NCBI GenBank assembly: GCA_947624445.1
Contig: CANQKF010000001.1
Coordinates: 1 to 64,000, forward strand
Origin: an uncultured Clostridia bacterium
GTDB lineage: Bacteria; Bacillota; Clostridia; Christensenellales; Borkfalkiaceae
Length of the DNA: 64,000 nucleotides
Direction of reading: 5' to 3'
Both the position numbers and the translations under genes were made by a program. The notes below the pieces were generated by a model that saw only the letters and a program-made list of their open reading frames with translations, was not told the origin of the DNA and ran no database searches. This document shows, in pieces, positions 1,800 to 58,080 of this stretch (positions are counted from its first letter, which is position 1; every line of letters begins with the position of its first letter).

Positions 1800-2225
1800 T
1801 TACGCTTTCGCCCCGACGAGCTTGGCGATATAACGCAGCGTCTCGATGTCCGCGTTATAGAAAGTGTGGTTCCACAGCCAGTGGTCTTTATGTTCCGTCC
1901 GTTTGTATGCCTGACAGGTCGGGTCGTCCCAGACCTTGTCCCACCGCTTCTGATATGCCTTGTACTCCGCCTCGGTGCATGATGTGGGGCTGAGGGCAAG
2001 ACGTGCGATGATTGCCTGCGTGAGCTTTCCCCTCTCCATCCCGTTGCCGTCGTCGTTGCGGGCGAAGTATTGGTGCGCATTTTCGCTATACATCAGGCAG
2101 ATGGGTTTGTGGTCGTAGTAGATCATTCCGTTGATTTCCTCGCACTCTGTCATAGCGGGAAGATTGACATCGCCGCAAATTGCCTTTTGTTTGAATCTCC
2201 TGTGCGTAATATATTTCATCTGCAT
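1800..2225 (-). CDS. Hypothetical phage protein (141 aa)
   Basis: ORF in operon order next to the DGR RT gene. Confidence 0.6.
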   Translation of the reverse strand: MQMKYITHRRFKQKAICGDVNLPAMTECEEINGMIYYDHKPICLMYSENAHQYFARNDDGNGMERGKLTQAIIARLALSPTSCTEAEYKAYQKRWDKVWDDPTCQAYKRTEHKDHWLWNHTFYNADIETLRYIAKLVGAKA

Positions 2226-3379
2226 AAACTCCTTTCTCTGAAATTTTCGATTTTCTCCGGTGAGAATTTGAACAATGAATAGAAGAGCCGCCGAAGTTTC
2301 AGCACCCTATTGTGGTCATTATAGTTATCGAGGTAGGCAAGCATCCCGTTTGTAGAAGTCCACAAGTCCTCGTAGCCCAGCTCGCCATCCATGACCTTCT
2401 TGTAGAATGACCGTATCTTATGGCGGTCGCGTTTCATGGCGCCGCGGTTCCCATGGACGAGTACCTTCCCCGTCTCTGTAATGGCGAATTTTGCCTTGCA
2501 ATATTTGAAGTACTGCGTCAGCGGCCTTATCCTTGTTTTACTTCTGCTGATGTGTAGGCCGAGGCTCGTCGCCTTCTCGATGAAGATTTCGAGAATGTGC
2601 TTCGCGTTCCTATCTGGCGGCACCAGTATGTAGTAATCATCCATATAGTGTCCGAATCCTTTCAGCGACAGCTGGCACTTCATGTAATTGTCGAGCGGCG
2701 ATGGCAGAGCTATCATCTCTGCTTGGCTCGGTTCTACACCAAGGGGCATCCCAATGTCACCCGAGATAGACGAGATAACCGCGTCACCGAACGCCCGTAG
2801 CTGTTCATTCGCGATATACATCTCGTGTCTGCGGTACAATTCCGAATGTGGCGCAGATGGGAAGAACTGTTTGAAGTCAATCAAGATAACCTTCCCCTCC
2901 CTCCCGTATTTACGGTAATGACGATGCAAGTCTTCTTTGAGTCGGTTCAGAGAGAACTCAAATCCCTTGCCCTCGAGGCTTGCTCCATTGTTCCAAATCA
3001 TTCCCGGTCGGTAGAGCGGCAGCAGGACATTCTTTGTATATGCCTTTTGCACTTGCCGATCTTGGACGCGCGGGGCGTCGATTGGTCTCGTCTTCCCTCT
3101 CTCATTCAGCATGAAGTGAACATACTTGTCGAATTGGTATTTCCCTTCCGCGACTTGTTTGCTTCTGACCGCCGTCCCGGAGAAAAGATGAGCTTCGAAG
3201 CGCTGCACACTATGTTTCCAACGTACACCGTTGCAGCATTTCTTCCCCGCTTTGTATAGTTCGTTATACGACAGAGCGGTCTCTATGCCGCCTATCGCAT
3301 CACATCGTTCCTTGCGCTTTTGTTCGCGCTTAGCCCGCCTTCGAAGATAGCGGGCTTCATGTCTTTCTTCACTTGTCAT
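2216..3379 (-). CDS. DGR reverse transcriptase
   Basis: 387 aa; YMDD catalytic motif (GHYMDDYYIL), DGR-type motif IGMPLGVEPSQ (SQ rather than QGxxxSP), N-terminal RT motifs (GKTRPIDAPRVQDRQVQ, ILIDFKQFFPS); adjacent to TR. Confidence 0.95.
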   Translation of the reverse strand: MTSEERHEARYLRRRAKREQKRKERCDAIGGIETALSYNELYKAGKKCCNGVRWKHSVQRFEAHLFSGTAVRSKQVAEGKYQFDKYVHFMLNERGKTRPIDAPRVQDRQVQKAYTKNVLLPLYRPGMIWNNGASLEGKGFEFSLNRLKEDLHRHYRKYGREGKVILIDFKQFFPSAPHSELYRRHEMYIANEQLRAFGDAVISSISGDIGMPLGVEPSQAEMIALPSPLDNYMKCQLSLKGFGHYMDDYYILVPPDRNAKHILEIFIEKATSLGLHISRSKTRIRPLTQYFKYCKAKFAITETGKVLVHGNRGAMKRDRHKIRSFYKKVMDGELGYEDLWTSTNGMLAYLDNYNDHNRVLKLRRLFYSLFKFSPEKIENFRERSLCR

Positions 3380-3642
3380 ATTTTTCTTAAAATAATTCGT
3401 CTCCCGTACAGTTTGATATCGTGTGCAGCTAAACTGCGTAAGCTTTACACATAAAATGGGGGTTTAGCACCTTCCTCCCACTATGCAAGCAGCGTCCGTG
3501 CAAAGCTATCAGGACCCGGGTTCGTTTCATACAACGAACCGACTGTTTTGGAACGCGCACGAGACGCGTTCACCGGAAACATCTCTCCTTTCACAAGGGT
3601 CCATTTCGTTACCTACTTTTCGCGACCCATTTTTTATGAGAT

Positions 3643-3759
3643 CCGGAGCCACGCCATTAGAATTATTAGCGTTGTTATTGTTGGCGTTGCCGTTGTTGTT
3701 GACATTGCAGAAATTGTTGCTGTTGTTGTAATTAGCAGAACGCTCCCACCAATTCGCCG
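3643..3759 (-). repeat. DGR template repeat (TR), 117 bp
   Basis: Aligns gaplessly over 117 bp with VR 4372-4488; differences only at TR adenines (coding strand); AAY-codon rich. Confidence 0.95.
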
Positions 3760-4357: not shown

Positions 4358-7300
4358 TTAGACTTTGAAAGCCGGAGCCACGCCAAAAGAATAAGCAGCG
4401 GCGGCACTGCCGGCGTAGCCGTCGTTGGCGACACGGCAGAAAGAGCCGCTGGAGTTGAAAGAAGCAGAACGCTCCCACCAATTCGCCGCGTCACCGATGG
4501 TGCCATTAAAGCGCTTCTTGATCTTCGTGTTGCCCGCGGCGTAATAAGCGTACTGCGCCTGACGGTTCCTCTCGTAGTTATTGGCATAGCTACGCGACCC
4601 GAAGATTTCGTATTCGGCAAGAAGGGGCAAGTAATCGGTCGTCTCCGTAACGTGGTCTTCGGTATTGCTGCTGTTCCCGTAGTTGTCCGTGAATTTCGTC
4701 ATCGGCTTCATGACCTGACGGAGGTCGAACGGAAGCGCCGCCATAAGCGTGTTCTCGACGGGGCTTGTAGCCGTCGTCTCTGCCGCGTTCTGAGCGCCTT
4801 TCTCGTGAACAGACCCGAGGATGTCGTAACGAAGGTCGCAGCCCTGCCATCCGCCCACATTGGTATTGCTACTGTGGTTCATGTTAAACCACTTAGAGCC
4901 ATTCGATGTGTAGTTGCTGTAGTGACTGTCTGTCAAGCAGAGGCTCTCGCCGTCAATCTGCGCGCTCTTAAAGGTACCGAAGTGGATACCCTTGCCTTCG
5001 TATCTCTCGTTGTGGTCGAACCCAAGGATATAGACGTACAACTTCTGTTCGAGAAGTTCGAGTGTGCCAATCGTGCCATTGAGTGTGACCTCTTTGCAAT
5101 CGCCGACCGAGAAGTAGTTCGCGCCCTGCCCTTTCTCGGAAATCTCGGAAATTACAGACCATGCCGTAGAGTTGAGTACATTCGGGTTCGTGAACGTCGC
5201 ACGGCAGGTCGTATCCTCTTGAATGTTCTTGTTGGACGGAATCCAACCGCTGAACCTGTCGCCTTCCTGAGAAGGTTCGGGCGTTTGCGAGCATTCCGCA
5301 TCCGCACCGTAGTCGACGACGACGCTTTCGATGAAGCTGTCTCCGTTGTAGAACTGAACGGTGTACTGCCTGATTGTCGCGATGAACGCTGCATAGACCG
5401 TGAGAGGCCCCGTAATCTTGTCGAGAACCGCGGGTGATGCCGGTGCGCCGTTGATTGTCGCCCAGCCGCTGAACGAGTATTTGTACTGAGGCGTCTGATC
5501 CTTTGTGGGGTCTTCGCCGCTGAAAGTTGCCCTGCCGCCGTTCTCGACCCAAGTCGTGTAGAGCAGGACGGTGTCGTTGTAGAAGAAGACGGCATAGGTC
5601 TCGTCGTACTGAGCCGTGACTACCTCGTCCTTCTGAACGTTAGTGGGCAGCTTATCCCACCCTCTGTAGGAATACTTCGTGTCCTCGGCGTCGTCCATCT
5701 TGGGTTCGCTGATGTAGCCCTGCTCGACGGGGTCTTCCGCGTTCGCGCCGCCAACCAGCTCTGCCGTATAGAGGATGGAGCCATCTTTGTTCTTGTATTC
5801 CACCTTATAGAGAAGGTTTTCGTATGTGAAGTTGATGTCGGGGTACTCACTCTGAAGCCGTTCGAACTCCGAGTAGCGCACGTTGACGATGTTCACGTTA
5901 CCCGTGACCTGTGCGTTTTGCGTGTTGCCGCCCGACTCGTCGATACCACGCATTGTATCAAGTGCGTCGAAGACTTCCATAAGCGCCTTCGTGTCCTGGA
6001 AGTTCCAGTTCACGCCGATGAGGCGCACGCGGCTTCCTTCATCGAGGTCTTTGACGATGTTTGCGCTGTCGACCGCAACGCCGCTATTCTCGATCCAGAA
6101 TGACGTCACGTGTTCGTAGCTCGGCATAGAGAAGTCCGTCAGCGCCGTCTGGTTCAGGAGCTTGATGCTCGTGACAGTTTCGGGCAAATGGAGCGTTTTC
6201 AAGATGCCGCCGTTCGGAAGCACGACACCCGAAATCTTTGTCCCCTCGAGATAGATTTCCTCGATATTGGGGCTTGCAGAAACGTTGACCTCGGACGCGA
6301 GGTTGATGCAGTTGCGCAGGTCGAGCGTCTTAAGAAGGACGTTGTTCCCAAGTGTAAGCGTAGTGAGGTTGGGGTTCGTGTACCCTTCCGCGGCGTCGCC
6401 GAGCTTCAAGTATTGCAGCTTGGTTGCCTTGGAGAAGTCTGCACGACCGACCTTAAGTCCGCTCAAATCCCCCGTACTCTTGATCTGCGACGCGGAATAG
6501 ATGTGGATTTCCGTATCGTTCAGATTGTCGACGGGACACTCGATTTCATAAGACTTCCCGCGAAGTGCGCGTACCTGACGAAGGTATGAACCGAACAGGA
6601 TAGATGCGTAGATGTCTGCATACGGCTCAATAGAGATGTTGCTCTTCGCGTAACCGCGGAGAACAATCATATCCGACTGCGCGTCGCCGGCGTTGTATTT
6701 GCTGTCGATATAGCGGAAGCGGTTATAGAGCCACCACTTTCTCTGTTCCGACTTGCTGCCCTGAAGCATCTGAAGATAATCGGCGCCCTCTTCGAGAAGC
6801 GGTTGCAGATACTTATAGTAGGCGTCCTCGTTCCAGATAGCTTCCGACCATACGGCCTGATGCTCTTCAAACGCCTTCTCCACGATTTCATAGGAGAGCT
6901 TGTTCTGAGAGCGAAGTTCCTGATACATAGAACGGATTTCGTTGCCGAACGCCTCACGGAGGTTAATCCAGAAGACGGACTGCTGACCGTTGTAAACGTC
7001 GGCTTCATCCACCTTGTCGATGTCCTCAAGCTCATAACCGAACACGAGCGAACCTTCGTTGTTGATACCGATTGCGGTATCCATGTCGTAAGGCAGCCAG
7101 CATACTTTTCCGCTCCCGAATTTGGACGGGAAGGCGTTCTTTGCACGGCTATCCACCATCAGGAACAGCTCTGTGAAGAGGTAGTAATAGATGGCGCTCT
7201 GAAGCTCAGCGTGTTCCGAGAACTCGTTCTTGAACTTCGCGAGACGGTATTCCTTGGTGTCGCTTTCGTACTTCACCCCGCCCCATGTTTTTGCCTCGGG

Positions 7301-38232: not shown

Positions 38233-41037
38233 TCATCCTTCTGAACAGACTCTTTTGAAGTGAAATCCATAGTAAATTTCGTCCCCGTCCGCATCTTCTT
38301 CGAGCATATAAACGGGTTCCTTGCTCCCCTCTATCATGCGCATGAAGGTCTCGTTCGGCTTGCAAAACATCGTATCAAACATCAGGCTCTTGATCTGCTG
38401 ATTGTCCTTCTTTTCAACCTCGCGCAGAACGAGATACATCAGGTACTCGTGCGACGACATCTTCTCAATAGCGGCGACACATTGCTGCTTTAATGAAGAC
38501 GCAATCTCTCGCGTGAGGAGTCGTGCCGTCTTGTCCTTGTCATCGTAGCCGATATAGGTCTCCGCAATCTTTGTTTTGTAGAACCGTATCATCTCGATGA
38601 CCTTATCGCGGATGATGTTGTACTTCCCCGTCTTAATCTCCGCGGACGGCTTGCGAACAATATCCATGAGAGGAATGATTTTCTTGCTTGCACGTCGCGC
38701 CTGCTGGTATTTCGCCGATGCGATTATCTTCTGAAGGTAGTCCATCGGTGTCTCGAAGTAGCGGTAGTGCGTATCGGGCGGCAGTTCAAACCCATTCTCG
38801 GTCGTTATCATCTTAAAGAACATCGGCTTGATGGTCTTCCCGTCCTCCTCAATGTGGTACTTCCGCTTGAGGATTTCGATTTCCTTGGCGCTATCGATTG
38901 TGAACTCCCGCTTTGCCTTGTCGATTTCGACCCCTGATAGCACGTCGAGCTTGCAGATGTCGTTATACAGCTCCTCAACCATCTCGTGGGTCGCCCCCTT
39001 GTGGCGCCGCTCCCAATAGAGACTGTTAAGCTGCTGCGAGAGGTTGACGATCTCCCCTATCTTATTGACGCTTGTCTTCACATCCAAGTCGGCTTTATCT
39101 GCGGAGTTGTAATGGCGTCTCGTCTTTTGGGCGCTCACGCAGTTTGTGGGAACGCGATAGAGGCCGTAGTTCTTCCTCGCGGCGCGGATGAGAAGTTCAT
39201 TATCCGTCAGTAGGATAGTGTCACTATCCATGTCGGCCCCGGAAAGGCGTTGCAGTATGTTCTCCCCGATTGAGTTTATGTATACAATCTCGTTCGTCAG
39301 GTTGAAGTACCTGTCAATCTCCTCACTCGCAACATTTTGAGCGAGAAGAACGTTCCCCATCGTCACGTGCGGACTTCTCGAGCCGAGGAGCGTCTTCCCG
39401 TAGGCGAACCTGTGCGAGTGTATATTCCCAACCCCAATGCCGCTCTCTCCGTGAAAGGCTCCAATAGACTGTTTTAGAAGCTCTACGCCATTTCCGAGGA
39501 GCGTTGAGTAATTCCCATCAAGGAGAACGTGTCCTCGCTTTAAGTTTCTAAAAAAGCCTTTTACTATGGCGTCGCGGAACTCCTTGTAAATCTTCGTCTG
39601 GCTGAACTTGTCGTTGATGCCAAGGAGTTTGAAAACGATTTCATTCTTCGTGACGAGTGGCGCGAACGCTTCATCCTCTGCCTCTGGTTTGAAAGCATAT
39701 CCGATGTGATACCGAAGAACCGCGGGATCCGTTCTGACGGCGTTGATATACTCGAGCGACGGGCGAAGAATCTCCTCCATGTCCTCATAAGAGAGTTGCA
39801 GGGTGTTGAGAAGCTGATAATGACATTGAACCATCCTGCCGCCGAAGAAGTGCGTCGCCTTCTCGAACTTCACAATGCCGAACGTACTCTCGATGTTCGC
39901 GAGCCATTGGTCTATCGTCCCGAACTTCAGGTACTTGACGCTGCTCGGCGTCGTGATGAGTTTGATTTGCGAAACATCCTTAGCAAGAGTGAAGCCGTTG
40001 AGCTGCTTGACGTCCGTTATACCGTTGTCCGCAAACCACTTCTGAATGTTCGTGTTAAAGGCACACGTTTTGAAGAAACGGTTTCGAAGCAGCAGCATCC
40101 CCTTCGCGGAATACTTGCCGAACATACTCTCATCCAGCAGCGACTCGCCATCCCAGATGCAGTTAACGACCTCGACATCTTTCTTTGTGGCGACGAGGCG
40201 GTTATCCACTTCCTCAACGGCGACGACATTATCCATGAACTTGCTCTCGAAGTCGTCTACGACGAGAATACTCTCCGGGGGGATGTCAATCGTGTCGATG
40301 ATGCTGCTCATCGGAAGCGCCGTATACGCTTCCCATGACGCGAGATCGATAGGCGCGTTCTCTCGAATGGTCAAGCCGCATCTGTCCCACCGCGCCATTC
40401 TCTTAGAGATCAGCTCGTTTACGAACAGGCACTTCCCGACGCGACTGCTCCCCGTGCTGCGCTTGTAGCGAACATAGTAGATGCCGTCGCAATAGAACCC
40501 ATTCTCGTAGAGGTCTTGCCGAAGCTCCGCCTTATTCTTTACGACGGGCGGCTCGCCCGCAAGGATATAGCAGCCGTCGACGAAGCGAAAGTACGGCGGG
40601 AGAATGTCTGCGCCGAGCGGCGTCTTGATCTCCACGTTCGTCTGTATTCCGATGAGAATCCCGTCCGCAATGCACACGCCGTCCTCAAACTCGCAATCCC
40701 GGAAGTCATAGCCGGCGCGAACATAGGTATTCTTCCCCGCCTTGTTGAACTCCTTATAGGAATAGGAAAACTTGACGTTGATGGCGACTTGGGTGTATCG
40801 GCGCCCGCAAAGAGAGAAGGAGAAATCCTTCCGACGGGCGGCGCGCTCATATTCATCCTGCATCTTCATCGTGTCGAGGCTCCAATCGAGGGTGTTCTCG
40901 AACTTCTTGAGATTCAGGGCGCCGTCCTTTGTGCGGATGTTGTAGCCGCAAGGTGACGGCGTGACCATGTGCATTGCAGCATAGAGGTCTTTTGCCTCTA
41001 CCGATAAAATGCGTAGCCCCTTACTCTTCATCTGCAC
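38233..41037 (-). CDS. Putative DPBB RNA polymerase (YonO/eukaryotic-RdRp-like superfamily)
   Basis: 934 aa; GSRSPHVTMGNVLL...INSIGENILQRLSGADMDSDTILLTDN resembles the RdRp 'RxPxxxPGD...GSDLDGD' signature. Confidence 0.55.
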   Translation of the reverse strand: MQMKSKGLRILSVEAKDLYAAMHMVTPSPCGYNIRTKDGALNLKKFENTLDWSLDTMKMQDEYERAARRKDFSFSLCGRRYTQVAINVKFSYSYKEFNKAGKNTYVRAGYDFRDCEFEDGVCIADGILIGIQTNVEIKTPLGADILPPYFRFVDGCYILAGEPPVVKNKAELRQDLYENGFYCDGIYYVRYKRSTGSSRVGKCLFVNELISKRMARWDRCGLTIRENAPIDLASWEAYTALPMSSIIDTIDIPPESILVVDDFESKFMDNVVAVEEVDNRLVATKKDVEVVNCIWDGESLLDESMFGKYSAKGMLLLRNRFFKTCAFNTNIQKWFADNGITDVKQLNGFTLAKDVSQIKLITTPSSVKYLKFGTIDQWLANIESTFGIVKFEKATHFFGGRMVQCHYQLLNTLQLSYEDMEEILRPSLEYINAVRTDPAVLRYHIGYAFKPEAEDEAFAPLVTKNEIVFKLLGINDKFSQTKIYKEFRDAIVKGFFRNLKRGHVLLDGNYSTLLGNGVELLKQSIGAFHGESGIGVGNIHSHRFAYGKTLLGSRSPHVTMGNVLLAQNVASEEIDRYFNLTNEIVYINSIGENILQRLSGADMDSDTILLTDNELLIRAARKNYGLYRVPTNCVSAQKTRRHYNSADKADLDVKTSVNKIGEIVNLSQQLNSLYWERRHKGATHEMVEELYNDICKLDVLSGVEIDKAKREFTIDSAKEIEILKRKYHIEEDGKTIKPMFFKMITTENGFELPPDTHYRYFETPMDYLQKIIASAKYQQARRASKKIIPLMDIVRKPSAEIKTGKYNIIRDKVIEMIRFYKTKIAETYIGYDDKDKTARLLTREIASSLKQQCVAAIEKMSSHEYLMYLVLREVEKKDNQQIKSLMFDTMFCKPNETFMRMIEGSKEPVYMLEEDADGDEIYYGFHFKRVCSEG

Positions 41038-42941: not shown

Positions 42942-43018
42942 AAGCCAGTAAAAGGAAGATTTGTGAGCAAAATCTTTTCTTTTTTTCTATTTTTTCTTTT
43001 CTTTTTTCTTTCGTTATA

Positions 43019-43175
43019 TAAGTATGCGTACCTAAGGTATGCGTACTTATATAGATTTTGCAAATACGCTTCTATAAACCATTGCGTTATATTGCATACT
43101 TAATTAGGTATGCAAACTTGCTTCCTGTATAAGTACGCGTACTTATATATAATAGTAATAGATATGCGTACTTAA
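43019..43175. promoter_or_regulatory. Cluster of palindromic operator-like sites (GTAC/GCATAC family)
   Basis: TTGCATAC-8-GTATGCAA (43092-43115), AAGTACGCGTACTT (43131-43144), and repeats of TATGCGTAC(C/T)TA. Confidence 0.55.
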
Positions 43176-44043
43176 AAGAAGGCGCGGGGCTTTGTTCGGA
43201 GCGCGCTCAAAAGAAGCAATTTTGCCACTTTTGCGATCTTATCGAGAGTTCTCTCCTTCTGTACGGGCTTTTTACGAGCTTAGAATAGTTAATATTTTTT
43301 TCTTGCAAAATTGATCTATTAGAGTTCTCCCCTTCCTTGCGAGGATTTTCCGAGGTGAATGCCGAGGAGTTCGTTCGGGTAAATGGGGCGTTGAGAGTGA
43401 GGAGTAGCAGACATTAAAATTTATAGGTCGCGTGTGCGCGCTTGGTATGTAAAACTCCCCCCTCCCCCACGGCGATGTTATCAACGCCAAAAAGATAATA
43501 TTCCTTTGACCCATATATTTTGCGCGTTCCCTATTTTCGCGCTCGCGGGCGAAATTTGGAACGCACGCGCGAATAGAATGGACTGCGCAAAAAGTAAATC
43601 GTTTGCGCAAAATAAATCGTTCACCACCCCTTCCCCCCTCTCCCTTCCCTATTCATTTTCCGCCCGTACTATTTATTCGCGCACGTTGTATAATTGTATT
43701 CACGTGAAGTAAGGGGTTCGCGCAAAATGTATTTGTTTGCCCTCGCTGTCAAGGGGGCTTCCCCCTCTGCACTCCCCCTCCAAGTCGCCCATACGCGCCC
43801 CAGCACGTGCGCGTACAATCTACTCGCCTGCGCGCAAAATAAATAGTACACACCCACGTGATGTAAAGGGTCGCTTGCTCGCGCAAAATAAAGTGTTCAC
43901 CCTGCCCGCGGTTCAAGGTCGCCCCCAGCCCCTTGCGCGCCCGCCTGTCACTATTACGCGCATAACACACGCTCGCGTTCACAAATTTCGCGCCCGCGCC
44001 CGCCGTTGCCGACCGCCGAAAAATTTTTCAAAAATCGCCCACC

Positions 44044-44060
44044 TTCCCCCTACGGGGGAA
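44044..44060. repeat. Hairpin TTCCCCC-TAC-GGGGGAA
   Basis: Perfect 7-bp inverted repeat with triloop. Confidence 0.85.
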
Positions 44061-44088
44061 AAAATTTTTTTCGAGGGGGTCAAAACGC

Positions 44089-44116
44089 TTGACAGCAACC
44101 GCGCGCGAGATATAAT
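44089..44116 (+). promoter_or_regulatory. Sigma70-type promoter of the hairpin-dense gene
   Basis: TTGACA-16 nt-TATAAT. Confidence 0.8.
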
Positions 44117-44220
44117 CAAACCGCCGACGGCAACCCCGCCGACGGCAGCCGACCGCTCCCCCAAAGGGGGACGCAAGCCACGGACGGTCGGTTCCCCCCT
44201 ACGGGGGGAAGGAGAAACCC

Positions 44221-45009
44221 ATGAGAGCTACCACCACCACCGCAACCGCAACCGTTGCCCCCCTTGACGAAGTCAAGACCTCGTTCATGCAAGCCGAGCT
44301 GTCCCGCATCGTCGCCGAAGTCGGCGTATCTCATATCTGCGATATGAGATACCGTCGGTTCGACAACGTCCTCGCATGGCTTGGTCACGTAGTGACCAAG
44401 AAGGCAATCCTCGCTCGCCCCTACCTGCCCGACGAGTACGCGGACCTCGCCCAGCGTCTGGGTGAAACCCAGACGGAAATCGACGATTGGCGGGAGGACG
44501 TAGTCCTCGCCGTTTGGACGGCTATCGCCGAAGGCGATACCGACCACGCCGTCACCCGTGCGTTCGAGGCGCTCGCGAGAGAGCTTGACCGCCGAGACGA
44601 CTACAAAGCCCGCACCAACAAATCTCTCCCGAAGGGAGAGATTGTTGACCGCGACTTTCGTCACGTTGCCGCCGTTTTGACGTCCCTTAACCCCGAAGGG
44701 GTTAAACCCGAGGACGACGGCTGCGAAATCCCGCCCGAGAGCGTGGAGGCGTATGCAGGCGAAAAGCTCGCCGCGCTTTTTGACGAAGTCAAAAAAGCTC
44801 ACCCCTATGCCCCGCAAAAACGCTGGAAGTGCTTTGAGTACTTCGTACTCAACGTTGCGAACGGTGACATCGCCGATTTGCTTGCTATAAGCAAGCAAAA
44901 AGCAAGCAAGAACAACCGCGAAACCGTCGAGTGGCTTCTTGACGTAGTCAAGAAGAACCCCGAGTTGCTCGAACACTTCCGCTCCCACCTCGCGAAAAAC
45001 GCCCTGTAA
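44221..45009 (+). CDS. Hypothetical protein (262 aa) encoded by a hairpin-dense gene
   Basis: Promoter 44089-44116, RBS AAGGAG, ATG 44221, terminator 45028-45060; about 16 perfect short inverted repeats within the CDS. Confidence 0.75.
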   Translation: MRATTTTATATVAPLDEVKTSFMQAELSRIVAEVGVSHICDMRYRRFDNVLAWLGHVVTKKAILARPYLPDEYADLAQRLGETQTEIDDWREDVVLAVWTAIAEGDTDHAVTRAFEALARELDRRDDYKARTNKSLPKGEIVDRDFRHVAAVLTSLNPEGVKPEDDGCEIPPESVEAYAGEKLAALFDEVKKAHPYAPQKRWKCFEYFVLNVANGDIADLLAISKQKASKNNRETVEWLLDVVKKNPELLEHFRSHLAKNAL

Positions 45010-45027
45010 GGGCGTTCGACCCGACCG

Positions 45028-45060
45028 ACCCCGAAGGCAACCCCTTCGGGGTTGTTTTTT
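45028..45060 (+). terminator. Rho-independent terminator
   Basis: ACCCCGAAGG-CAACC-CCTTCGGGGT followed by a T-rich tract. Confidence 0.9.
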
Positions 45061-45225
45061 TCTACGCGCGCGCACATACGCGCCTATACGCGCCCGTCGC
45101 GCTGCGCCCCTCCGCCCGTGTCCGTGTGCCTGTACGCCCGTGTGTACGCGCCCATACGCGGGAGCGCGTCCTCTTGGGGGGAGCACGAGGGGGGGTGCTT
45201 CTCCGTGTGTCCGTCGAGCCGTGAG

Positions 45226-45296
45226 GGCTAACCCCTAAAGGGGTTGACAGCTCGCCCTGTGTAGTGAACGACGGCGACCCCGCCGCTCGGCTCGCC
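45226..45296 (+). repeat. 71-bp direct repeat, copy 1
   Basis: GGCTAACCCCTAAAGGGGTTGACAGCTCGCCCTGTGTAGTGAACGACGGCGACCCCGCCGCTCGGCTCGCC, identical to 45338-45408. Confidence 0.95.
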
Positions 45297-45337
45297 CCCT
45301 CACGGGCGCGGGTCACGGCTCGGCTCGGCGGCTCGGC

Positions 45338-45408
45338 GGCTAACCCCTAAAGGGGTTGACAGCTCGCCCTGTGTAGTGAACGACGGCGACCCCGCCGCTC
45401 GGCTCGCC
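45338..45408 (+). repeat. 71-bp direct repeat, copy 2
   Basis: Identical to 45226-45296 (offset 112 bp). Confidence 0.95.
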
Positions 45409-45716: not shown

Positions 45717-46440
45717 TTGCGGAATACATAGCCCCACCGTGTGGGGCAAGCGCACGGGGTCACGCCCACCGACGGGCAATGTGGACGGCATGACGTCCCA
45801 AACCAATCATGACCCGCCTCCGTCGGGACATCAACGGATAATTACCTCCGATGGGGTCGTAGCGTGACGACCCCGAACGCTCTCAATGCTCGTTCCTCCT
45901 CGTGGTGAGAGTGGGCAGCTCCGAATGGGGCTGGCTGATTGCGGGCATAGCCGACCATGGACGGCGATAGAATTTGCATGGCGTTACCTTGACGACAAAA
46001 AGGCGTCGGTTAAGCCGCATGGGAGTAGACCTACGGCGAGTCGGATAGTGAAATCGGCAACAGGTATGGCATCAAACCTAAACTCGGCTTGTGCAACGTG
46101 TGCCTATGCGTGATGTCGCAAGTACGATCCTCGCATGATAATACGTCCGTTAGGCGTCGCCATGCCCCAAGGGGCGTGTGGTCAACGTCGTCTCGCGGTC
46201 AAATGGAAGGTAATCCCGTCCTGCGTGATGTGCATAGTCGCGCCCCAAGGGGTGGCGTTATGTACTTGTCCTGCGTCGATACGATTTGCGGATAGCGTGA
46301 ATACAATCAACCTCTAAAAAACTATGGGCGTCGCCTGTGTTTGCGGGCGTCGCCCTCTTTACGCCCATGGGCTACCTCCTCGCGGTGGGCGCGGATACCC
46401 AACCAACAGCCCGAAAAATCTATACTCAAGGAGTAACATT

Positions 46441-56928: not shown

Positions 56929-58080
56929 ATGCCTTACATTACAATCCCAGTAAAGCAAGCGGGATATCAATTATCCATCGATGACATCATCTACGGCATC
57001 GATGAGGCGACCTTTCAGGCACAGCTGAACAAAAAAGATATGAATGACACGAGAACGGCATACCGTAGGTCGACGCCCGGTCGTCTGCTTGAGCAGATCC
57101 ACTTTGACGAAATGGTTGACGCTCTCAAGGCTTTCAATCAGAAGTACGAAACTCTTATCGCGATGGAGGACAAGACGCCCCTTTACAGAAGTTTCAAAAT
57201 TCCTAAGAGGAGCGGCGGCCTGCGCCCCATTGATGCGCCAAAGGATGAGTTAAGCATCGCGCTGTATGAGCTTAAGTCCATCCTCGAACACAAAATGTTT
57301 GCAAGCCACCATACGTGTGCGTTTGCTTATGTGTCGAGGAGATGCGCCATTGACGCGGTAAAGCGCCATCAGGCGAACAGATCGCGGTGGTTTCTGAAAC
57401 TCGACTTCCACAACTTCTTCGGTAGCACTACCTTGGAGTTCGTGGAGTCTCAGCTCAAGATGATTTTCCCGTTCAACGAACTGTATCTCCGCGCCGATGG
57501 AGCAGAGGAACTTCATAAGGCATTGTCTTTGTGCTTCCTCCGCGGCGGGCTTCCGCAGGGAACCCCCATCAGCCCCATGCTCACAAATCTTTTCATGATT
57601 CCCATCGATCACGCAATCGCAAAAATTGCTCGCGGCAATACGCCCTACCTCGTATATACGAGGTATGCAGATGACATTCTCATATCGAGCGACATCTCTT
57701 TCAAGTGGCGCGAAGTGCAGGATACGATTTTGGGCATCATCGATGCGTTCAAGGCTCCCTTTACGCTCAACACAGCGAAGACGCGCTACGGCAGCTCCGC
57801 GGGGCGCAACTGGAACTTGGGGGTTATGCTCAACAAAGACAACAAGATCACAATCGGCCACGCAAAGAAGAAGCTCTTCAAGGTAAAGGTATACTCCTTC
57901 ATGAGAGATTTTGCGGAGAATAACCCGTGGAGTATCGGCGACACACAATCGCTCAGCGGCGAAATCGCTTATTACCGCATGGTAGAAAAGGATGAGGTTG
58001 ATAAAATCATCAAGTTCTACAGCGAGAAGTTCAACCGCGACGTCATGGCTACCATCAAGAGCATCCTCACGGCGGCTTAA
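56929..58080 (+). CDS. Second reverse transcriptase (non-DGR, retron/group-II-intron-like core)
   Basis: 383 aa; YTRYADDILIS, GLPQGTPISPMLTN, FLKLDFHNFFGST, IPKRSGGLRPIDAP. Confidence 0.9.
   Translation: MPYITIPVKQAGYQLSIDDIIYGIDEATFQAQLNKKDMNDTRTAYRRSTPGRLLEQIHFDEMVDALKAFNQKYETLIAMEDKTPLYRSFKIPKRSGGLRPIDAPKDELSIALYELKSILEHKMFASHHTCAFAYVSRRCAIDAVKRHQANRSRWFLKLDFHNFFGSTTLEFVESQLKMIFPFNELYLRADGAEELHKALSLCFLRGGLPQGTPISPMLTNLFMIPIDHAIAKIARGNTPYLVYTRYADDILISSDISFKWREVQDTILGIIDAFKAPFTLNTAKTRYGSSAGRNWNLGVMLNKDNKITIGHAKKKLFKVKVYSFMRDFAENNPWSIGDTQSLSGEIAYYRMVEKDEVDKIIKFYSEKFNRDVMATIKSILTAA

Follow-up and report, generated by a model that had tools for sequence, protein, structure and literature searches.

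The window is a stretch of 64,000 nt from a contig of 153 kb, which belongs to a metagenome-assembled genome of 1.84 Mb. The genes of the contig include a phage integrase and members of other phage families, and its GC content climbs towards host values beyond about 100 kb, so that a prophage is likely. The gene at 44221-45009 on the plus strand codes for a 262-aa orphan protein with an Ala/Thr-rich N-terminus and a conserved C-terminal block (FEYFVLN...LAISKQ...). No Pfam, PHROG or NCBIfam family and no solved relative was found for this protein. Its AlphaFold model was of low confidence (mean pLDDT 47), and it is our impression that the C-terminus contains a helix-turn-helix. The gene is divergent from an operon encoding proteins of 444 aa and 934 aa. 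The 934-aa protein (38233-41037, minus strand) belongs to PHROG 8308, has an invariant DxDSD motif and shows distant similarity to phage proteins, one of which, from a Thomasclavelia phage, is annotated as an RNA-dependent RNA polymerase. It had no match in the PDB and its structure model (pLDDT 42) was too poor to use; it is possibly a candidate YonO-like RNA polymerase.

A search through the polymerase neighbor revealed diverged homologs of the 262-aa gene in L002, L003 and L005. An alignment search then gave L020 (from a rabbit Clostridia metagenome-assembled genome), L021 (from a sheep colon metagenome-assembled genome) and later L059. We compared the window, L020, L005, L021 and L059, which represent four phage lineages. 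Amino acid identity was 29-95% among the homologs and 29-62% between lineages; the five sequences are not independent, since L005 and L021 are 95% alike. No further homologs were found among annotated phages and plasmids, and of about 1000 related genomes searched, only those of the window and L020 gave a match. A weak match in L035 turned out to be an unrelated bacterial locus without hairpins, and a search with a 16-mer from the leader apparently gave chance matches only.

A predicted sigma-70-like promoter (TTGACA-16-TATAAT, 12/12 consensus) is located at 44089-44116 (+), and the unit ends with a terminator-like hairpin followed by a T run at 45026-45062 (+). All hairpins listed here are given for the plus strand. 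The hairpin TTCCCCC-TAC-GGGGGAA (44044-44060) lies upstream of the promoter. The leader forms a structure CCGACCG ... CGGTCGG (44149-44191), which encloses the hairpin TCCCCC-AAA-GGGGGA (44157-44171) and the conserved CGCAAGCCACGGA; both the outer stem and the enclosed hairpin covary with L020. The hairpin TTCCCCCC-TAC-GGGGGGAA (44192-44210) overlaps the RBS region and has a GTA loop in L020. Within the coding sequence we found CTTGAC-GAA-GTCAAG (44263-44277), GTATCTCATATC-TGC-GATATGAGATAC (44326-44352; TAACCTACCTC-GTA-GAGGTAGGTTA at the same place in L020), CTTGGTCAC-GTA-GTGACCAAG (44380-44400; CTTTGCTAC-GAA-GTAGCAAAG in L005), CGTCTGGGT-GAA-ACCCAGACG (44455-44475; CGTAAGTTC-GTA-GAACTTACG at about the same place in L020), GAGGAC-GTA-GTCCTC (44494-44508; 9 bp with a TTC loop in L020) and TATCGCC-GAA-GGCGATA (44523-44539). 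These are followed by AATCTCTCCC-GAA-GGGAGAGATT (44621-44643), with a central stem that is kept in all five sequences (CTCTTCC in the others), TTAACCCC-GAA-GGGGTTAA (44687-44705), TTTTTGAC-GAA-GTCAAAAA (44777-44795), TTGAGTAC-TTC-GTACTCAA (44834-44852; in all five, with the arms TTCAGTGC/GCACTGAA in L059), TTTGCTTGCT-ATA-AGCAAGCAAA (44877-44899; in all five, with the core CTCGCT/AGCGAG in L021 and L059) and CTTCTTGAC-GTA-GTCAAGAAG (44935-44955). Finally, AACGCCCT-GTA-AGGGCGTT (44998-45016) runs across the stop codon.

Two identical 71-bp repeats, 112 bp apart, are present at 45226-45408 (+), each with the hairpin AACCCC-TAAA-GGGGTTGAC. The element GTTATC-AACGCCAAAAA-GATAA(T) at 43477-43499, to which no strand is assigned, recurs in the homologs as an exact or near-exact copy some 600-740 bp before the ATG, and was seen directly in L020. 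Four copies of an iteron-like GCGCAAAATAAATNGTNC lie upstream of the hairpin gene (43587-43901), and none were seen by eye in the homologs. Repeated near-palindromes AAGTACGCGTACTT near the divergent promoter (43018-43178) are likely operator sites. The roughly 600 bp at 45717-46320 lack a clear gene, contain several GC-rich inverted repeats and gave no Rfam match. The window also harbors a diversity-generating retroelement on the minus strand (TR 3637-3759, VR 4366-4488, RT 2216-3379). Its TR and VR form a 123-nt repeat pair with 28 of 29 differences at an A of the template copy, the VR is the 3' end of a 2045-aa gene, and an Rfam RT-2 RNA is found at 3379-3630. A second reverse transcriptase gene (RVT_1) lies at 56929-58080 (+). 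The protein encoded at 2593-3315 of L036 (about 66.6-67.3 kb of the contig) ends in a variable-region-like stretch (YWWGRSASSDTSLTFCFVSYYGSAYSHSAYYSYGVAPAFGF) and is possibly a second retroelement target.

The initial annotation had reported about 16 perfect inverted repeats inside this one coding sequence, with further ones in the leader, and proposed an inverted-repeat scan. When the whole 64-kb window was scanned for perfect stems of at least 6 bp with a loop of 3 nt, 17 of the 49 hairpins fell into the bin from 44 to 45 kb, as did all six sites with stems of at least 9 bp. The coding sequence 44221-45009 contains 12 such hairpins with 102 base pairs, and a 13th is the hairpin over its stop codon. 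Codon-preserving shuffles that kept the protein and the codon counts (n = 2000) had a mean of 0.81 hairpins and a maximum of 5. The observation of a hairpin-dense gene is therefore confirmed and is stronger than first stated, and the leader hairpins starting at 44044, 44157 and 44192 are real. Some details of that list did not hold: AATC-GAC-GATT and CGAG-TTG-CTCG have stems of only 4 bp, which are trivial and carry no weight, the loop of CGCCGA-AG-TCGGCG has 2 nt, and two of the listed starts fall on loop positions or deviate by ten, with arms that begin at 44621 and 44687. No kilobase exceeded 5 hairpins in a host sample of 300 kb or in about 89 kb from the remainder of the contig; the host sample rules out a host-wide hairpin habit.

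Equally dense codon shuffles, or homologs lacking inverted repeats, had been named as results that would refute selection or directed generation of the structure. Neither was observed. With stems of at least 6 bp and loops of 3-4 nt, we counted 12 hairpins in the window gene, 13 in L020, 17 in L005, 16 in L021 and 15 in L059, compared to about one in codon shuffles, and the array was present in every homolog found. A hairpin at the stop codon is present in every homolog, as are 2-3 hairpins AACCCC-TAAA-GGGGTTGAC or close variants downstream of the gene. From leader to terminator the density was about 4-5 hairpins per 250 nt despite turnover, and outside it was at background. In the window and L020 there is little difference between the extent of the dense part and that of the transcription unit. 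The dense part of the L005 group starts at about -690 and reaches some 550 bp beyond the sole promoter predicted in that direction (at about -120), with 7-9 hairpins on its upstream side; a further upstream promoter is possible in this group. The centers of 8 of 12 hairpins matched within two columns between window and L020, 7 of 12 between window and L005 and 12 of 17 between L005 and L059. The remaining hairpins shift or turn over.

The triloop was a whole codon (frame 0) in 11 of the 13 hairpins of the window gene, and GAA or GTA in 10 of the 13. For loop codons with a synonymous choice in the window, L020 and L059, 25 of 26 ended in A, versus 105 of 587 codons elsewhere (p = 4e-17): GAA was never GAG, GTA was never another Val codon, and ATA was never ATC. 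A 5'C-G3' closing pair was present in 80-90% of the hairpins versus 24% of background hairpins, and 70-88% versus 15.5% had GNA or TNC triloops; in the window alone the closing pair was C-G in 16 of 19, and 15 of 17 triloops were GNA or TNC. GNA loops closed by C-G form extraordinarily stable DNA minihairpins with a sheared G-A pair (PMC4686876, PMC11101458). In N4 promoters, extrusion at physiological supercoiling requires exactly this C-G closing pair together with the 5'G and 3'A of the loop (PMC4496689). In RNA, too, GNA triloops may be favorable. The GNA was found on either strand outside the coding sequence (8 vs. 12) and mostly on the coding strand inside (32 vs. 7), a bias that may be explained by codon choice. 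The preference for frame 0 is no separate puzzle, since in the window and L020 synonymous choice alone favors this frame. A CsrA-type sponge was ruled out, as the loops are not GGA.

RNA helices normally use G-U as a pair. Among one-sided stem changes, G-U and A-C were about equally frequent. At the first pair beyond the perfect stem G-U occurred once and A-C 15 times (binomial p = 5e-4), with base composition explaining some of the skew, and a single stem had one internal G-U versus about 70 perfect stems. In the five sequences, stems of 7 bp or longer were perfect in 70 cases and had exactly one internal mismatch in 2, compared to about 12.7 of the latter in shuffles, although the fair expectation is lower because the count omits one-mismatch stems that overlap a perfect hairpin. 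In the upstream regions of L005, L021 and L059 there were 15 perfect stems and none with one mismatch. A few hairpins carry a mismatch near the outer end. Mutation-selection balance should put near-misses above chance, most of all if whole hairpins can be lost; their absence could also stem from very strong selection. The RNA folding energy was far below that of codon shuffles (z of -5 to -11) and as extreme as for DNA folding. The ViennaRNA DNA parameters lack a GNA bonus, so that energies do not tell the loops apart. No Rfam family matched at 43-46 kb.

We looked for compensatory stem changes in a codon alignment, as the initial annotation had suggested. Many hairpins are located at homologous codons with both arms rewritten. 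Different stem letters at a homologous place are seen for VSHICDMRY (GTATCTCATATC/GATATGAGATAC) and LTYLVEVGY (TAACCTACCTC/GAGGTAGGTTA), for FEYFVLN (TTGAGTAC/GTACTCAA) and FQCFALN (TTCAGTGC/GCACTGAA), and for AKCPKTLE (CAAGTGTC/GACACTTG) and HNDLKVVA (CAACGACC/GGTCGTTG). From L005 to L059, 127 stem pairs showed 28 changes of the left side, 36 of the right side and 23 two-sided changes, versus 7.9 two-sided changes expected from the single-side rates, and 19 of the 23 were Watson-Crick pairs again. When the partners were slid by 1-3 columns as a control, only 1-4 were re-paired. The compensated pairs lie mostly in codons with a changed amino acid, often on both arms (12 of 19 for L005/L059, 13 of 15 for window/L020). 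Homologous hairpins mostly differ by substitutions and not by insertion of a unit, which rules out insertion of mobile palindromes. In every comparison the stems changed less than the rest of the gene (2.0 vs. 6.2% for L005/L021, p = 0.007; 22.9 vs. 34.9% for L059/L005, p = 6e-4). This slower evolution points to selection on the stems, and the lack of near-miss hairpins, though whole hairpins come and go, indicates correction from arm to arm. The earlier suggestion of selection on the structure, or of a directed mutational process behind it, is thus supported, with the data pointing to both together.

The array has been maintained over deep divergence, with a loop selected at synonymous sites, stems of Watson-Crick pairs only and near-perfect hairpins missing despite turnover. 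Our preferred reading, to which we give a probability of about 0.45, is a maintained array of DNA-level hairpins in which selection, together with correction of one arm by the other, keeps the two arms identical. The hairpins would form in DNA, either when it is single-stranded or when negative supercoiling extrudes small cruciforms, and the C-GNA-G loop would lend them unusual stability. A mismatch in the stem of a formed hairpin, G-T included, would be handled as damaged duplex by mismatch repair; alternatively, template switching may copy one arm onto the other. The arms would stay identical in this way while the stem letters and the encoded amino acids drift, and selection would retain the overall hairpin density. 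Least certain is the role: the array may act in cis, as a DNA structure within the region of early phage control, where it lies between divergent promoters and beside repeats. Our best guess is that it serves as a platform for a hairpin-binding protein, which could be the product of the gene itself, a phage polymerase or HU.

The hairpins could instead act in the transcript, by protection against RNases, by tuning of translation or by binding of the encoded protein for autoregulation. The dense part about coincides with the span from promoter to terminator in the window and L020 and the leader fold covaries between these two, both as expected if the RNA were functional. Hairpins lie at the RBS and stop codon in the homologs, pairing is preserved by covariation in the stems, and the RNA folding energy is far lower than in shuffles. 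We nevertheless regard such a role as rather unlikely, because G-U was not accepted as a pairing state in three tests, near-miss hairpins are absent, hairpins of the L005 group lie upstream of the sole predicted promoter, and the loops are DNA-stable GNA loops rather than GNRA or UNCG tetraloops, without an Rfam family. The pure Watson-Crick stems would be explained if plus and minus RNA strands both had to fold as templates of an RNA-dependent RNA polymerase, since such stems fold equally on both strands, and the neighboring 934-aa protein with its DxDSD motif has the distant match to an annotated polymerase of this kind. We consider an RNA replicon very improbable, however: more distant relatives of the polymerase had no hairpin-dense stretch in their 10-kb flanks, the model of the polymerase structure is of low confidence, and the upstream hairpins are outside the predicted transcript.

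Mutation without any benefit is a further alternative, in which recurrent template switching during replication makes and keeps perfect hairpins at this locus. Single events of template switching are documented to create, fix or repair hairpins (PMC8794818), and the process would fit hairpins that are perfect or absent, the abrupt ends of the stems and the replacement of whole stems, in which the two arms and the amino acids change. We judge this explanation to be improbable, since the stems evolve more slowly than the rest and the density stays steady in spite of turnover; the process would also have to be confined, in four lineages, to this one unit, sparing the rest of the prophage and the host sample.

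The dense-hairpin stretches may form a wider class. A search with the motif AACCCCTAAAGGGGTTGAC gave additional phage contigs rich in hairpins, for which no relation to the window gene was detected, and the dense stretches lie at 5300-6500 in L062, 4470-6871 in L066 and 300-1271 in L069. Because they were fetched by a hairpin motif, these contigs are uninformative on how common the phenomenon is. Their closing pairs are mostly 5'C-G3' (65-100%). L066 harbors an ORF of 343 aa with 16 hairpins, compared to 1.7 in shuffles, for which no relative was found, and has 23 perfect stems versus 2 with one mismatch; the contrast is not clear for L062 (12 vs. 4) and L069 (5 vs. 3). In L062, consensus-like promoters have an element AACCCC(C)TAAA(G)GGGGTT directly adjoining their -35 region. 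We tentatively propose, at somewhat less than an even chance, a class of phage genes and early regions that are kept as dense arrays of small extrudable DNA hairpins, in which the arms are proofread against each other as DNA and the protein sequence bears the cost. If this is true, a structural code is layered over the coding sequence, recognizable by hairpins that are perfect or absent, and selection on the secondary structure of DNA can prevail in a coding sequence. The evolutionary signature (no G-U, no near-misses, fixation of the loop at synonymous sites) would then tell DNA hairpins from RNA hairpins by sequence alone.

The initial annotation had stated that the structure matches no known feature class. 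This applies to the dense array inside a coding sequence, for which we found no precedent; the grammar of the single unit is known from C-GNA-G DNA minihairpins and N4 promoters. A literature search of incomplete coverage gave no earlier reports of dense hairpins in phage genes. REP/BIME-type palindromic repeats are also short and several per locus, but they share their sequence and are mostly intergenic, whereas here every stem differs, the hairpins lie within codons without indels, and only short cores such as TTGACGAAGTCAA recur. Template-switch hairpins (PMC8794818) likewise have perfect arms and compensatory double changes without a G-U intermediate, and perfect arms with paired changes of several bases are found in the array as well. 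They are described as scattered and for RNA genes, however, while the array is concentrated in a single phage gene, its loop type is selected and its stems are conserved beyond what mutation alone would leave. The hairpin or cruciform at the target of the BPP-1 diversity-generating retroelement also lies in phage DNA, has a stem of 7-10 bp in which structure and not sequence matters, a G..A loop, and may overlap a stop codon (PMC3240598). Unlike the array, it consists of a single hairpin that closely follows the variable region and has a GRNA loop of 4 nt. In our gene triloops dominate, four-base loops are TAAA, TTTA, TTAC, GTAA and similar, and the window retroelement is 40 kb away, so that the hairpins do not lie 4-34 bp behind its variable region. 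Promoters of the N4 virion RNA polymerase have stems of 5-7 bp or slightly longer, a 3-nt loop with 5'G..A3', a 5'C-G3' closing pair and stem letters that are largely free if paired (PMC4496689). The stems of 6-12 bp and the mostly 3-nt loops found here agree with this, but in N4 the hairpins stand singly, at three promoters, and have conserved flanks, and the array has 12-17 per gene inside the coding sequence, with stems and flanks that differ from hairpin to hairpin and no common sequence from -17 to +1. The array thus belongs to no described class that we found, and its unit resembles the N4 promoter hairpins without their defining flanking sequence. If our reading is true, the locus offers a natural test system for the extrusion and correction of short hairpins in living cells, for which single cases such as N4 promoters and retroelement targets have so far been the reference.
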